Below, one piece after another: positions 51,750 through 60,064 of a stretch of DNA of 64,000 nt. Source of the DNA: Nocardioides terrae (GTDB lineage Bacteria > Actinomycetota > Actinomycetes > Propionibacteriales > Nocardioidaceae); the NCBI RefSeq assembly GCF_900112345.1, contig NZ_FOLB01000013.1, positions 1 through 64,000 of the forward strand. The letters are read 5' to 3'. The first letter of the stretch is position 1. Each line of letters opens with the position of its first letter. The notes beneath the pieces were generated by a model. It was not told the origin of the DNA. It ran no database searches and saw only the letters and a program-made list of their open reading frames with translations. A program made the translations under genes and the position numbers.

Positions 51750-53990
51750 ATGAGCACAGGCAGCGGGTACCGATCGCTCGCCGACCAGCTGCGCGCCTGG
51801 CCGGACGAGCGGCTGTCCGGCCTCCTCCGCGCCCGGCCGGACCTCGCCTCACCGGCTCCGCAGGACTCCGGTCAGCTCGCGTCGCGGGCGGCCACCCGCG
51901 CCTCGCTGCTGCGCGCCCTGGACCAGCTCAGCCGACCCGAGCTGGCCGTCCTCGACGCCGCGGTGGTGCTGCAGAACGCCACGCCCGCGCAGATCGAGGC
52001 GGCCGTCCACGCCGGGACCGCGACGGTCGAGGCCGCGCTCGAGCGGCTGCTCGGCCTCGCCCTCGTCTGGGAGTCGCACGCCGGGCTGCGGGCGCTGACC
52101 GGTGTCGCCGAGGCGCTCGGACCGGTCAGCGGGCTGCGTCCGTCGACGGGGCGTGCGCCAGCCGACGCACGCACGTCGGTGGCGGAGCTCTCCGACGCCG
52201 CGCGGGCCATGCTCGAGCACGTCGTGGACGCGGGCGGCGAGGCGGTCAGCAGCGCGCGGACGACGGTCTCGGTCTCCGAGGCGGCCACCCCCGCGGAGGA
52301 GCTGATCGCCCGCGGGCTCCTCCTCCCCCGCGCCGGCGGACCGATGATCGTGCCGGGCGAGGCCGGCATCGCCGTGCGCGGACACACGACGAAGGAGCCG
52401 GTGGACGTCGCTCCGGAGGTGCCTACCTCGCCGCGCTCCCAGGCGCTGGTGGACAAGGTGGCGGCGGGTGCCGCCTTCGAGGCCGTACGCCGCACCGAGC
52501 TGCTCGTCGACGGCTGGGGCGCCGAGCCGCCGGCCGCGCTGAGGTCCGGCGGGCTGGGCGTCCGGGACCTGCGCTCGACCGCGGCGCGGCTCCACGTGGA
52601 CGAGCCGACCGCCGCCCTGCTGGTCGAGGTCGCCCACGAGGCCGGCCTGATCACCACCGCTGCCGATCTCGACGGCAACCCCGCCTGGCTGCCGAGCGAC
52701 CTCATCGACTTCTGGTCGACCCAGCCCGTCGCCGAGCGCTGGCTGGTGCTCGCCCGCGCCTGGCTCGACAGCGAGCGCACCCCCACCCTGGTCGGCCAGC
52801 GTGACCCGGCGGGCAAGGCCTTCAACGCACTCGTGCCGGAGCTCGTGAGCCCGATGATCCGGGAGACGCGGCGGATGACGCTGGCCGAGCTGGCCCTCCT
52901 GCCGGACGGCGAGGTGCTCGCCTCGGGCACGGGGGTGCCCGGTCTGGTCGCCCGCCTGGCCTGGGTGCGGCCGCGCCGGCCGCGGCAGCGCACCGACCAG
53001 GTCGTGCACGTCCTGACCGAGGCGGCGGCGCTCGGCGTGACGGGGCTCGAGGGGCTGGCGTCGTACGCACGGGTCCTGCTGGACCGCGGTGACGCCGAGC
53101 CGGTGCTCGCGGCGCTCCTGCCCGACCCGGTCGACCACGTGTTGCTCCAAGCCGACCTCACCGCCGTCGCGCCGGGCCCGCTGGAGCCGACCCTCGGCCG
53201 CAACCTGCAGCTGATCGCCGACGTCGAGTCACGAGGAGGCGCGACCGTCTACCGCTTCACGCCGGCGTCGGTGCGGCGGGCCCTCGACGCCGGCTGGAGC
53301 GCCGCCGAGGTGCACGCGTTCCTCGCATCGGTCTCGCGGACCCCGGTCCCGCAGCCGCTCTCCTACCTCGTCGACGACGCGGCCCGGACCTTCGGCTCGA
53401 TCCGGGTCGGGCACGCCGAGGCGTTCCTGCGCGCGGACGACGAGACGGCGCTGACCGAGCTGCTCCACCATCCCCGCGCGACGACCCTCGGGCTGCGGCG
53501 GATCGCGCCGACGGTGCTGATCTCGACCACCCCGCTCGACGTCCTGCTCCCCCGGCTGCGCGAGCTCGGTGTCGCCCCGGTCGTCGAAGCCGCCGACGGC
53601 ACCATCCACGTCGCGCGGCCGGACCAGCTCCGCGCACGGACGCCCGCAGCACGACGTACGGCGGCCGCCGGTGCGCGCGACTCGGCCCGGGTGGCCGCGG
53701 TGGTCCGCGCGATCCGGGCCGGCGACGAGGTCAGCGCGACCCGGCCCACCAGCGGCGTCCTGCAGCTCACCCCTGCCGATGCCCTCGCGGCGCTGCGCGA
53801 GGCGGTCGAGACGGCGACGCCGGTCGCGATCACGTACGTCGACAACCACGGCACCCTCGCCGACCGGATCGTCTCTCCGCTGCGCGTGGAGGGCGGCCAG
53901 CTGGTCGCCGTGGACCGGCGCTCGGAGGACACCCGCTCCTTCGCCGTGCACCGGATCCGCGACGTGCGGCCGGTTCCGACCCAGCGGTGA
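51750..53990 (+). CDS. Helicase-associated domain protein (XPB-linked, Helicase_C_3 type)
   Basis: A 746-aa protein with no Walker motifs. The C-terminal third ([20 protein letters not shown], then [17 protein letters not shown]) matches the domain found in the mycobacterial protein encoded next to XPB/Ssl2-type helicases (Rv0862c/Rv0861c arrangement). The N-terminal half is repeated winged-helix-like. It ends with a WYL-like strand set ([20 protein letters not shown]). Probably a helicase partner in DNA repair; here an enoyl-CoA hydratase and an acyl-CoA dehydrogenase gene lie between the two. Confidence 0.8.
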
Positions 53991-53999
53991 CCCAGCAAC

Positions 54000-54005
54000 T
54001 AGGGT
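54000..54005 (+). promoter_or_regulatory. -10 box of the enoyl-CoA hydratase gene
   Basis: TAGGGT ends seven bases before ATG 54013; leaderless pattern. Confidence 0.55.
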
Positions 54006-54012
54006 CGCCGCC

Positions 54013-54813
54013 ATGGCCGAACCGCTGCTGATCGCCCGCGACGGGCACGTCGAGACCTGGACCCTCAACCTCCCCGAGCGACGCAACCCGATCTCCGACC
54101 TCCCGATGGTGGAGGCGCTCGAGGACGCGGCGACCCGGGTGGCGTCCGACGTGTCGGTGCGGGCGGTGATCCTCACCGGAGCGGGCCCGGCGTTCTCCTC
54201 CGGCGGCGACGTGAAGGCGATGGCGCAGCGGTCGGGGATGTTCGGCGGCAGCGGTGCGGAGATCGCCGACGGCTACCGCCGCGGCATCCAGCGCATCCCG
54301 CGCGCGCTCTTCCACTGCCCCGTCCCGCTGATCGCGGCCGTCAACGGGCCGGCGGTCGGGGCCGGCTGCGACCTCACCCTGATGTGCGACCTGCGGATCG
54401 CCTCGACCACCGCGTTCTTCGCCGAGTCGTTCGTCAAGGTCGGCCTCATCCCCGGTGACGGCGGCGCCTTCCTGCTGCCGCGCGTCGTCGGGGCGGCGCG
54501 TGCCGCCGAGATGGCGCTGACCGGCGACCGGATCGGCGCCGAGCAGGCACTGGAGTGGGGGTTGGTCTCCCGGATCGTCGAGCCCGAGGACCTCCTCCCG
54601 ACCGCCCGCGAGCTCGCCGACCGGATCGCGGCCAACCCGCCGGTCGCCGTGCGAGCCGGGAAGCAGCTGATCCGCGAAGCCGCCGGGCTCTCGCTCGACG
54701 AGGTGCTCGACAAGTCCGCCGACGTGCAGTCGATGATGCACCAGACGCTCGACCACGCCGAGGCGGTCGCGGCGTTCGTGGAGAAGCGCGAGCCGCGGTT
54801 CACCGGGGAGTAG
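54013..54813 (+). CDS. Enoyl-CoA hydratase/isomerase family protein
   Basis: A 266-aa crotonase-fold enzyme. Oxyanion-hole segments are FSSGGDVKAM and NGPAVGAGCDLTLMCDLR. The segment that carries one catalytic Glu in classical hydratases (QPE before IPGAGG) reads FAESFVKVGLIPGDGG, so the first catalytic Glu is absent and activity may differ (isomerase or other CoA chemistry). The 3' end overlaps the convergent acyl-CoA dehydrogenase by 14 bp. Confidence 0.87.
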   Translation: MAEPLLIARDGHVETWTLNLPERRNPISDLPMVEALEDAATRVASDVSVRAVILTGAGPAFSSGGDVKAMAQRSGMFGGSGAEIADGYRRGIQRIPRALFHCPVPLIAAVNGPAVGAGCDLTLMCDLRIASTTAFFAESFVKVGLIPGDGGAFLLPRVVGAARAAEMALTGDRIGAEQALEWGLVSRIVEPEDLLPTARELADRIAANPPVAVRAGKQLIREAAGLSLDEVLDKSADVQSMMHQTLDHAEAVAAFVEKREPRFTGE

Positions 54814-55987
54814 CGGACCTCACCAGTGCGCCGCCGATGATGAGCCGCTGGATCTCGCTGGTGCCCTCGTAGAGCCGCAGCAGCCGGACGTCGCGGTAGA
54901 TCCGCTCGACGGGCACCTCGCGGATGTAGCCGGTGCCGCCGTGCACCTGGACGCCGAGGTCGGCGACGCGGCCCGCCATCTCGCTGCAGAACAGCTTGGC
55001 CACCGACGGGGCGGTGCGGTCGCCGTCGAGCCAGTAGCGGCGGGCGCAGTCCCGCACCAGCGCCTGGCCGGCCAGGACCCCCGTCTGCATGTCGGCGAGG
55101 TGCGCCTGGACGAGCTGGAAGGAGCCGATCGGGTTCCCGCCCTGGGTGGCGCCGGCGGCGTACGCCACCGACTCGTCGAGCGCGCGGCGTGCCAGGCCCA
55201 CGCCGAGCGCCGCGATGTGCAGCCGTCCACGCGACAGGGACGCCATGGCGGCGCGGTAGCCGTCGGCCTCCGAGCCGCCGACGAGCGCCGCGGCGGGCAG
55301 GCGTACGTCGGTGAAGGTCACGTCCGCGGTCCAGGCGCCCTCCTGGCCCATCTTCTTGTCCTTCGGGCCGACCTCGACGCCGGGTGTCGACGCCGGCACG
55401 AGGAAGACGGCGATCCCCGGGTCGTCGGGCGTCGCCTCGCGGGTGCGGGCGAAGGTGACGAAGAGGTCGGCGATCGGGGCGTTGGTGATGAACCGCTTGC
55501 CGCCGTCGATCATCCAGTCGGCGTCCTCACCGGCGCCGTCCCGACGGGCCCGCGTGCGCAGCCCGGCGGGGTTGGACCCGGCCCCCTCCTCGGTGAGCGC
55601 GAAGGAGGCGACCACCTCACCGGAGGCGATCCGGGGCAGCCACTCCTCGCGCTGCTCGTCGGTCCCGTAGCCGACCAGCACCTGGCCCGCGATGCCGTTG
55701 TTGGTCCCGATCATCGACCGGACCGCGACCGAGGTGTAGCCGAGCTCCATCGCGATCTCGACCTCCTGCAGCCCATCCAGGCCCAGCCCACCCCAGCGCT
55801 GGGGCAGGGCGAAACCGAAGAGGCCGAGGTCGGCCACCGCGGCGCGCAGGTCGTCGGGGATCCGGTCGCCCGTCATGATCTCGTTCTCCCGCGGCAGCAC
55901 CTTGGTGCGCAGGAACTCGCGGGTCGTGGCCAGGATCTCGGCGAAGTCCTCGCCGTCCACCTCGGGCTGGTGCGTGGGGGTGCTCAT
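54800..55987 (-). CDS. Acyl-CoA dehydrogenase
   Basis: A 395-aa FAD enzyme that makes the alpha-beta double bond of acyl-CoA. Landmarks are VVASFALTEEGAGSNPAGLR, VQVHGGTGYIREVPVERIYR and the catalytic-Glu loop LYEGTSEIQRLIIG. ATG 55987 has TACGGT seven bases upstream. Together with the convergent crotonase gene it could form part of a fatty-acid or branched-acid breakdown path. Confidence 0.93.
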   Translation of the reverse strand: MSTPTHQPEVDGEDFAEILATTREFLRTKVLPRENEIMTGDRIPDDLRAAVADLGLFGFALPQRWGGLGLDGLQEVEIAMELGYTSVAVRSMIGTNNGIAGQVLVGYGTDEQREEWLPRIASGEVVASFALTEEGAGSNPAGLRTRARRDGAGEDADWMIDGGKRFITNAPIADLFVTFARTREATPDDPGIAVFLVPASTPGVEVGPKDKKMGQEGAWTADVTFTDVRLPAAALVGGSEADGYRAAMASLSRGRLHIAALGVGLARRALDESVAYAAGATQGGNPIGSFQLVQAHLADMQTGVLAGQALVRDCARRYWLDGDRTAPSVAKLFCSEMAGRVADLGVQVHGGTGYIREVPVERIYRDVRLLRLYEGTSEIQRLIIGGALVRSATPR

Positions 55988-55994
55988 GGGCGCG

Positions 55995-56004
55995 ACCGTA
56001 CCCT
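55995..56004. promoter_or_regulatory. Overlapping divergent -10 boxes (acyl-CoA dehydrogenase and XPB)
   Basis: Minus-strand TACGGT (56000-55995) and plus-strand TACCCT (55999-56004) share the two bases at 55999-56000. They lie seven bases from ATG 55987 and eight from GTG 56013. With only 25 bp between the two start codons there is no room for two conventional 5' leaders. Confidence 0.6.
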
Positions 56005-56012
56005 TGTCTGCC

Positions 56013-57671
56013 GTGACCGATGGCCCCCTCATCGTCCAGTCGGACAAGACGCTCCTCCTCGAGGTCGACCACCCTCGCGCCAGCGATGCGCGCAAGGCGA
56101 TCGCGCCCTTCGCGGAGCTCGAGCGGTCCCCCGAGCACATCCACACCTACCGGCTCACGCCGCTCGGTCTCTGGAACGCGCGGGCCGCCGGCCACGACGC
56201 CGAGCAGGTGGTCGACGCGCTGCTGGAGTTCTCCCGCTACGCGGTTCCGCACGCGCTGCTCGTCGACATCGCCGAGACGATGGCGCGCTACGGCCGGCTG
56301 CGGCTCGAGAAGCACCCCACCCACGGCCTGGTGCTGGTCTCCAACGACCGGCCGGTGCTCGAGGAGGTGCTCCGCGCCAAGAAGATCGCCGGGATGCTCG
56401 GCACCCGGCTCGACGACGACACCGTCGCGGTCCACCCCAGCGAGCGCGGCAACCTCAAGCAGGCGCTGCTCAAGCTGGGCTGGCCGGCCGAGGACTACGC
56501 GGGGTACGTCGATGGCGAGGCCCACCCGATCGAGCTCGACGAGTCCGAGTGGCAGCTGCGCGCCTACCAGCGGGAGGCGGCCGAGTCCTTCTGGCACGGC
56601 GGGTCCGGGGTCGTCGTACTCCCGTGTGGCGCCGGCAAGACGCTGGTCGGCGCCGCTGCGATGGCGCACGCCGGGGCGACCACCCTCATCCTGGTCACCA
56701 ACACCGTCAGCGCCCGGCAGTGGAAGGACGAGCTGGTCAAGCGCACGTCGCTGACCGAGGACGAGATCGGCGAGTACTCCGGCACCGTCAAGGAGGTCCG
56801 TCCGGTCACGATCGCGACCTACCAGGTCCTGACGACCAAGCGGAAGGGCGTCTACCCGCACCTCGAGCTGCTCGACGCCCGCGACTGGGGCCTCATCGTC
56901 TACGACGAGGTCCACCTGCTGCCCGCGCCGATCTTCCGGATGACCGCCGACCTGCAGGCCCGACGCCGGATCGGCCTGACCGCGACGCTGGTCCGCGAGG
57001 ACGGCCGCGAGGGCGACGTCTTCTCGTTGATCGGCCCCAAGCGGTACGACGCCCCGTGGAAGGACATCGAGTCGCAGGGCTGGATCGCGCCGGCCGACTG
57101 CGTGGAGGTCCGGGTGACGCTGCCGTCCGCGGAGCGGCTGGTCTACGCGACCACCGAGCCGGACGAGCGCTACCGGCTGGCCGCCTGCACCCACCACAAG
57201 ATCGACGTCGTCCGGTCCCTGATCGCGCGGCACAAGGGCGCGCCGACGCTGGTGATCGGGCAGTACCTCGAGCAGCTCCACGAGATCGCCGACGCGCTGG
57301 ACGCCCCGGTGATCTCCGGGGAGACGCCGGTCAAGGAGCGGCAGCGGCTCTACGACGCCTTCCGGTCCGGCGAGCTGTCGCTGCTCGTCGTCAGCAAGGT
57401 CGCGAACTTCTCCATCGACCTGCCGTCGGCGGAGGTCGCCATCCAGATCTCCGGGTCCTTCGGCTCGCGCCAGGAGGAGGCCCAGCGGCTGGGCCGCCTG
57501 CTGCGCCCCGGCGACCCGCTGCCCGACGGCACCCGCAAGACCGCGCACTTCTACACGGTCGTGTCCCGCGACACCGTCGACGCCGACTTCGCGGCCAACC
57601 GGCAGCGGTTCCTGGCCGAGCAGGGGTACGCCTACCGGATCGTCGACGCCGACGACGTCACGGGCGAGTGA
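56013..57671 (+). CDS. DNA repair helicase XPB
   Basis: A 552-aa superfamily 2 helicase of the bacterial XPB group. An N-terminal damage-recognition-like region precedes Walker A VVVLPCGAGKTL (near 200), DEVH in YDEVHLL (near 296), the RED-like segment LVREDGREGD and motif VI EAQRLGRLLRPG. GTG start, eight bases after a TACCCT box. Probably acts in transcription-linked repair with the helicase-associated protein. A short UvrA paralogue lies convergent downstream. Confidence 0.93.
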   Translation: MTDGPLIVQSDKTLLLEVDHPRASDARKAIAPFAELERSPEHIHTYRLTPLGLWNARAAGHDAEQVVDALLEFSRYAVPHALLVDIAETMARYGRLRLEKHPTHGLVLVSNDRPVLEEVLRAKKIAGMLGTRLDDDTVAVHPSERGNLKQALLKLGWPAEDYAGYVDGEAHPIELDESEWQLRAYQREAAESFWHGGSGVVVLPCGAGKTLVGAAAMAHAGATTLILVTNTVSARQWKDELVKRTSLTEDEIGEYSGTVKEVRPVTIATYQVLTTKRKGVYPHLELLDARDWGLIVYDEVHLLPAPIFRMTADLQARRRIGLTATLVREDGREGDVFSLIGPKRYDAPWKDIESQGWIAPADCVEVRVTLPSAERLVYATTEPDERYRLAACTHHKIDVVRSLIARHKGAPTLVIGQYLEQLHEIADALDAPVISGETPVKERQRLYDAFRSGELSLLVVSKVANFSIDLPSAEVAIQISGSFGSRQEEAQRLGRLLRPGDPLPDGTRKTAHFYTVVSRDTVDADFAANRQRFLAEQGYAYRIVDADDVTGE

Positions 57672-57676
57672 GCCTG

Positions 57677-57712
57677 GTGAGTGTCAGAGTGACCGATGGG
57701 TCACTCTGACAC

Positions 57713-57716
<4 letters not shown>
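57677..57716. terminator. Bidirectional terminator between XPB and the UvrA-like gene
   Basis: A perfect 18-bp stem (GTGAGTGTCAGAGTGACC, loop GATG). The UvrA-like stop codon (57715-57713) lies inside the right arm. The strongest hairpin in the window. Confidence 0.85.

Positions 57717-60064
<2,348 letters not shown>

Follow-up and report, generated by a model that had tools for sequence, protein, structure and literature searches.

A 25-bp gap between divergent XPB helicase and acyl-CoA dehydrogenase genes of Nocardioides terrae is probably a bidirectional promoter for two leaderless mRNAs

We analysed a stretch of 64,000 nucleotides of Nocardioides terrae (contig NZ_FOLB01000013.1, positions 1 to 64,000; hereafter the window), in which the genes of the DNA repair helicase XPB and of an acyl-CoA dehydrogenase (ACAD) are divergent, with 25 bp between their start codons (Table 1). 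The initial annotation had described two -10 boxes in this gap, on opposite strands and with a TA in common, and its coordinates, gap length, boxes and shared TA all agree with ours. TACCCT is the sole TANNNT on the plus strand between 55788 and 56030, as is TACGGT on the minus strand between 56212 and 55970, and a sigma-70 consensus scan of 54000-58000 did not find any sigma-70-type -35/-10 pair. The opposed -10 elements overlap reciprocally at the TA, the criterion used for bidirectional promoters. The predicted distance between the two transcription start sites is 23 bp from the box geometry, or 26 bp if both mRNAs initiate at the start codons, the latter being just beyond the 7-25 bp between divergent start sites by which a bidirectional promoter is defined (PMC12825309, PMC10268837). 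No leaders are predicted for either mRNA, and hence the promoter would occupy the entire gap between the start codons.

Table 1. Features of the XPB/ACAD region in the window, and further divergent gene pairs of the genome with the shared-TA layout
Feature	Position	Strand or orientation	Evidence
Proposed bidirectional core promoter, between the start codons	55988..56012		24/25 bases same in sister genome G105
XPB -10 box TACCCT, GTG 8 nt downstream	55999..56004	+	TANNNT 5-9 nt before start in 69/86 genus loci
ACAD -10 box TACGGT, ATG 7 nt downstream	55995..56000	-	Identical in sister G105
TA common to both boxes (palindromic)	55999..56000		Sequence
DNA repair helicase XPB, GTG start 56013	56013..57671	+	NF045503, 857.2 bits vs cut-off 610 (NCBIfam equivalog); PF16203
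Acyl-CoA dehydrogenase (ACAD), ATG start 55987	54800..55987	-	PF02771, PF02770, PF00441 (N-terminal, middle and C-terminal Pfam domains)
Enoyl-CoA hydratase/isomerase-family gene, with ACAD between the Helicase_C_3 gene and XPB	54013..54813	+	PF00378
Helicase_C_3-domain protein, usual co-directional upstream neighbour of XPB in the genus	51750..53990	+	PF13625
Iron-dependent-repressor family / alpha-glucosidase-like (latter by eye)	G000:C9:222102 (L239)	Divergent	Pfam
5-formyltetrahydrofolate cyclo-ligase / UDPGP-family galU	G000:C12:171246-171274 (L240)	Divergent	Pfam
S9-peptidase-like (by eye) / LamB-YcsF	G000:C15:104864-104892 (L241)	Divergent	Pfam
Prephenate dehydratase / unnamed	G000:C19:407896 (L242)	Divergent	Pfam
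2'-5' RNA ligase-like / methyltransferase	G000:C15:5197/5223	Divergent	Spacing 7/8, gap 25

Leaderless starts look common in this genome, judging from the placement of TANNNT motifs. Our sample of 727 kb consists of the window and further stretches and holds 631 genes found by a home-made gene caller, the starts of which are candidates and not annotations. Before the 1489 candidate starts, TANNNT stands at 6 nt in 68 cases, at 7 nt in 51 and at 8 nt in 12, and at each of the other offsets, from 9 to 40 nt, in 0 to 8 cases (mean about 3). We take P. acnes to belong to the same order as the source organism. TAnnnT promoters and leaderless mRNAs with AUG or GUG are reported for P. acnes, and its translation-gene promoters have a GnTTnG -35 alongside TAnnnT (PMC3848588). 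In M. tuberculosis, TANNNT lies before 73% of the primary start sites and 26% of the genes having a primary start site are leaderless; no conserved -35 was found there (PMC3898074).

The XPB side of the gap carries the more widespread of the two boxes. We read 86 XPB loci of the genus, namely those of the window and of the sister genome G105 and 84 more from a search over 147 genus genomes. The 69 loci with the box include the window and the sister, and the box lies at exactly 6 nt from the start in 59 of these (8 nt in the window), while the background 20-150 nt upstream of the genus XPB genes is 8 TANNNT in 11180 positions. The bases preceding TA are mostly CCG (50, 64 and 60 of the 69 by position), and the promoter consensus is about TCCGTAGRCT, followed by 6 nt and GTG. 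A named set of Nocardioides/Marmoricola-type loci (L003-L028, some of whose genomes overlap the genus set) has the box in 18 of 26. None of 49 more distant actinobacterial loci has it; these were counted out of 54 (L029-L082), five without a start-motif match being left out. By this distribution the XPB box is old in the genus.

A TANNNT 6-8 nt before the start that is kept in relatives is the criterion for a leaderless gene, and XPB has such a box. Of the two leaderless mRNAs proposed by the initial annotation, that of XPB is thus well supported by the sequence comparison, and that of ACAD moderately, as discussed below. The XPB mRNA may bear a leader of 1-3 nt, since the 8-nt spacing is rarer in the genome than 6 or 7 nt. 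The median Shine-Dalgarno pairing is -5.7 kcal/mol in the 17 genus XPB loci without the box versus -2.4 kcal/mol in 67 with it. This stronger predicted pairing suggests that some members of the genus have probably changed their mode of starting. Outside the genus, Streptomyces-type XPB genes (many of L030-L081, from Streptomyces and relatives) have by eye no TANNNT box, and upstream of many of them a motif resembling ACACTGGA is seen together with Shine-Dalgarno-like leaders rich in purines.

The ACAD side has a much narrower distribution. The flanks examined at the genus XPB loci were 1.15 to 3 kb long (median 1.2). The Helicase_C_3 gene is found co-directionally upstream of XPB at 77 of the 86 loci, the window and G105 included. 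A divergent ACAD beside XPB, with the enoyl-CoA hydratase-family gene beyond it, occurs at two loci, those of the window and G105, and the other 29 ACAD orthologs listed (54-79% identity) have coordinates that place every one of them away from XPB. On this evidence the pairing of ACAD with XPB is recent. Conservation of the spacing, one of the checks proposed by the initial annotation, holds in the sister, where the gap is also 25 bp, and fails at the other 84 loci because the ACAD neighbour is absent there. At six others of the 86 XPB loci, ORFs point to candidate divergent neighbours other than ACAD, 27-95 bp away; a candidate neighbour at L186 (G067), 44 bp off, has a separate TAGGGT box 7 nt before its ATG.

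Between the window and G105 the fourfold-degenerate sites diverge by 30% in XPB (92/310) and 42% in ACAD (96/231). The probability of at most one change in the 25-bp gap is no more than 0.002 against the fourfold sites, and 0.23 and 0.11 against whole-gene divergence, so that constraint on the gap is suggested and not proven. The ACAD box on the minus strand consists of the conserved CCGTA of the XPB promoter plus one A. In both of these related genomes it precedes the ATG by 7 nt, and 6 and 7 nt are the two spacings at which TANNNT peaks. No TANNNT was found 3-12 nt before any candidate start in the 15 ACAD orthologs that we read at other loci, where the upstream DNA is different, and we therefore do not favour the idea that ACAD brought along a leaderless promoter of its own. 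The simplest history, we infer, is that ACAD brought no leader of its own and is transcribed from the back of the XPB promoter. A repeated motif, GGTATTGGAC or a sequence close to it, stands upstream of the ACAD orthologs L103, L105-L107 and L110 and could be a regulator site.

The gap could instead drive XPB only, with TACGGT a by-product of CCGTA and ACAD expressed as a leadered mRNA from inside XPB. A weak Shine-Dalgarno-like AAGGG 13 nt upstream of the ACAD ATG (-6.2 kcal/mol) would fit such an mRNA, as would the 15 orthologs without TANNNT. Among seven of these, selected by eye, the predicted pairing with the anti-Shine-Dalgarno is -7.5 kcal/mol or stronger in six and -4.3 in one. An equivalent opposite-strand box is also present at three XPB loci that have no ACAD, so a chance origin is possible. 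However, the spacing of the AAGGG is poor, the minus strand has no further TANNNT for about 200 bp, and TACGGT is placed exactly 7 nt from the ATG and retained in the sister. We consider this one-way reading unlikely. A leaderless ACAD mRNA is moderately supported, by the well-spaced box in two related genomes but with the weak AAGGG beside it.

How much of the overlap of the boxes could be due to chance? Part of the sharing comes for free, since TA reads the same on both strands: once one TANNNT exists, a single extra base, an A four positions before TA, creates a box on the opposite strand. Of the 67 genus XPB loci that carry the box but have no ACAD neighbour, 3 have this A, and so do 7 of 132 box-bearing starts in our sample of the genome; a second box taken by itself is thus expected about once in 20 cases. 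Five of the seven are among the 71 starts whose upstream gene is divergent, and two among the 61 whose upstream gene is co-directional. The XPB site was filed with the latter two, since ACAD was missing from the gene set used, and the 2'-5' RNA ligase-like/methyltransferase pair counts twice, once from each side. In this sample divergent pairs are not clearly enriched in the shared box, and the sample counts alone are still compatible with chance. Three things set the XPB/ACAD case apart from chance: the ACAD start is well spaced, the sister has kept it, and another pair has preserved this layout over a long time. We rejected chance as the full account since the galU pair keeps the layout at 29 of 31 loci and the spacing-6/7 pattern described below has five sites versus one in its control.

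The shared-TA layout recurs in the genome. The 727-kb sample has 104 divergent pairs, 17 of which have TANNNT at 6-8 nt on both sides, and two of these share the TA: XPB/ACAD and the ligase-like/methyltransferase pair, both with a gap of 25 bp and spacings of 7 and 8 nt. When the whole genome was searched for the layout with spacings of 6 and 7 nt, five sites were found versus one for a control read backward. At four of the five, long ORFs with coding-like G+C run from both codons; the fifth (G000:C30) was discarded, its minus-strand ORF having only 12 codons. Besides XPB/ACAD, five divergent pairs thus carry the layout.

The galU/cyclo-ligase pair is the most persistent of those that we followed through the genus. 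We read 31 loci (L274-L303 and L334) of 59 genus genomes, and 29 of them have the shared TA and both starts in frame, with gaps of 22-23 bp. The promoter sequence is mostly AGCCTACGAT and in some loci AGCCTAGGCT; L292 and L299 keep the box with a minus-strand start that is out of frame with the partner. Outside the genus the layout was found at none of the four loci read, three further weak matches (L339-L341) being left out. The YcsF/S9 pair keeps the layout at 11 of 30 genus loci (L304-L333), and at the remaining loci the shared box or the partner is missing, or the start is not in the right place. For the ligase-like/methyltransferase pair, matches were found in 38 other genomes, and none of the 29 genus loci that we read from these has the layout together with the divergent partner; L264 has the box and start codon with no partner detected, and L265 and L266 have the box alone. 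In L245, L255, L259-L262, L264-L267 and L271 the leaderless-type start of the methyltransferase gene is preceded, at about 15-25 nt, by a palindrome like TAGAACNNGTTCTA, imperfect in some cases. It looks like an operator, possibly of the KstR type.

We think it fairly likely that a module of 22-26 bp, arranged as start codon - 6 to 8 nt - ANNNTANNNT - 6 to 8 nt - start codon, recurs in Nocardioides-type actinobacteria and contains everything required to start both transcription and translation of a divergent gene pair. It would be genus-wide at galU/cyclo-ligase, and would arise easily when a start codon lands behind a leaderless promoter, as at XPB/ACAD.

Our analysis suggests that the 25-bp gap probably serves two leaderless mRNAs as a bidirectional promoter belonging to the known 23-bp class, and that an old XPB promoter has turned two-way, ACAD being expressed leaderless from its back (probability about 0.8). 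The old promoter would yield XPB mRNA that is leaderless. In the lineage that includes the window and G105, the enoyl-CoA hydratase-family gene and ACAD would have ended up between XPB and its usual upstream gene, and the ACAD start codon would now sit at the back of the XPB promoter. There the CCGTA core, read on the opposite strand, together with one well-placed A would make the second TANNNT box, and the orientation of the polymerase would decide the product, a leaderless XPB mRNA one way and a leaderless ACAD mRNA the other. The divergent promoter with overlapping -10 boxes that the initial annotation had proposed is backed by the sequence, by the conservation of the XPB box and by the recurrence of the layout. 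Its statement that the polymerase can face only one direction at a time agrees with the published steric constraints (PMC12825309). Among E. coli bidirectional promoters 23 bp is a common start-site distance, after 18 bp, and opposed polymerases cannot bind together at such promoters (PMC12825309), hence exclusive binding is a fair inference here.

The initial annotation went further, setting the repair helicase against the dehydrogenase in a switch by which the shared promoter would make expression of XPB and ACAD mutually exclusive. This would refine the two-way promoter and is compatible with it, and the two-way promoter would not need regulation by competition. The overlapping boxes would block simultaneous binding, and in E. 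coli strong activation in one direction can repress the other. However, at five of five E. coli bidirectional promoters, weakening one direction barely altered the other at basal activity, competition appearing only once activity was raised (PMC12825309, PMC10268837). The divergent leaderless pair prpD/Rv1129c of M. tuberculosis is reported to be induced together on starvation (PMC3898074). The XPB/ACAD pairing is recent and confined to 2 of the 86 loci, with other neighbours elsewhere, and the same layout joins unrelated gene pairs with no apparent reason for antagonism. We therefore regard the switch between repair and metabolism as a weak reading and quite improbable. It is still less credible that XPB starts at an upstream in-frame codon (ATG 55986 or TTG 56004, both open) with the boxes being coding DNA, since the homology starts at GTG 56013 and the start spacing across the genus clusters at 6 nt from the box.

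If the two-way promoter is true, the locus would be a clean case of the birth of a bidirectional promoter, in which one base and a relocated start codon make a conserved one-way leaderless promoter two-way. The promoter would be near-minimal, as it has no leaders and no recognisable -35. The other pairs in the genome, one of them genus-wide, make selection for co-expression, economy or competition testable. More interesting than XPB/ACAD itself is that the genome uses this minimal layout repeatedly and that the layout has persisted at galU across the genus.

Among the matches listed in the open-access literature, judged by titles and abstract openings, none concerned leaderless bidirectional promoters in actinobacteria, the galU pair or start-site maps of Nocardioides, and PMC3898074 came near. 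In its text closely juxtaposed divergent promoters are called a common feature of M. tuberculosis. The gap resembles the prokaryotic bidirectional promoters described by Warman, Grainger and co-workers (PMC12825309, PMC10268837) in that the opposed -10 elements overlap by their own symmetry and that the start sites predicted from the box geometry are 23 bp apart. It differs from them in that both mRNAs are predicted to be leaderless, that the boxes are TANNNT with no recognisable -35, and that the start sites here are predicted from sequence. With TANNNT just ahead of a start codon at which transcription, too, is predicted to begin, it is like the actinobacterial leaderless promoters reported in M. 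tuberculosis (PMC3898074) and P. acnes (PMC3848588), except that here two of them are superimposed in opposite directions. The pair prpD/Rv1129c (PMC3898074) is likewise divergent with both mRNAs leaderless; it differs in consisting of a regulator and its neighbour that are induced together.
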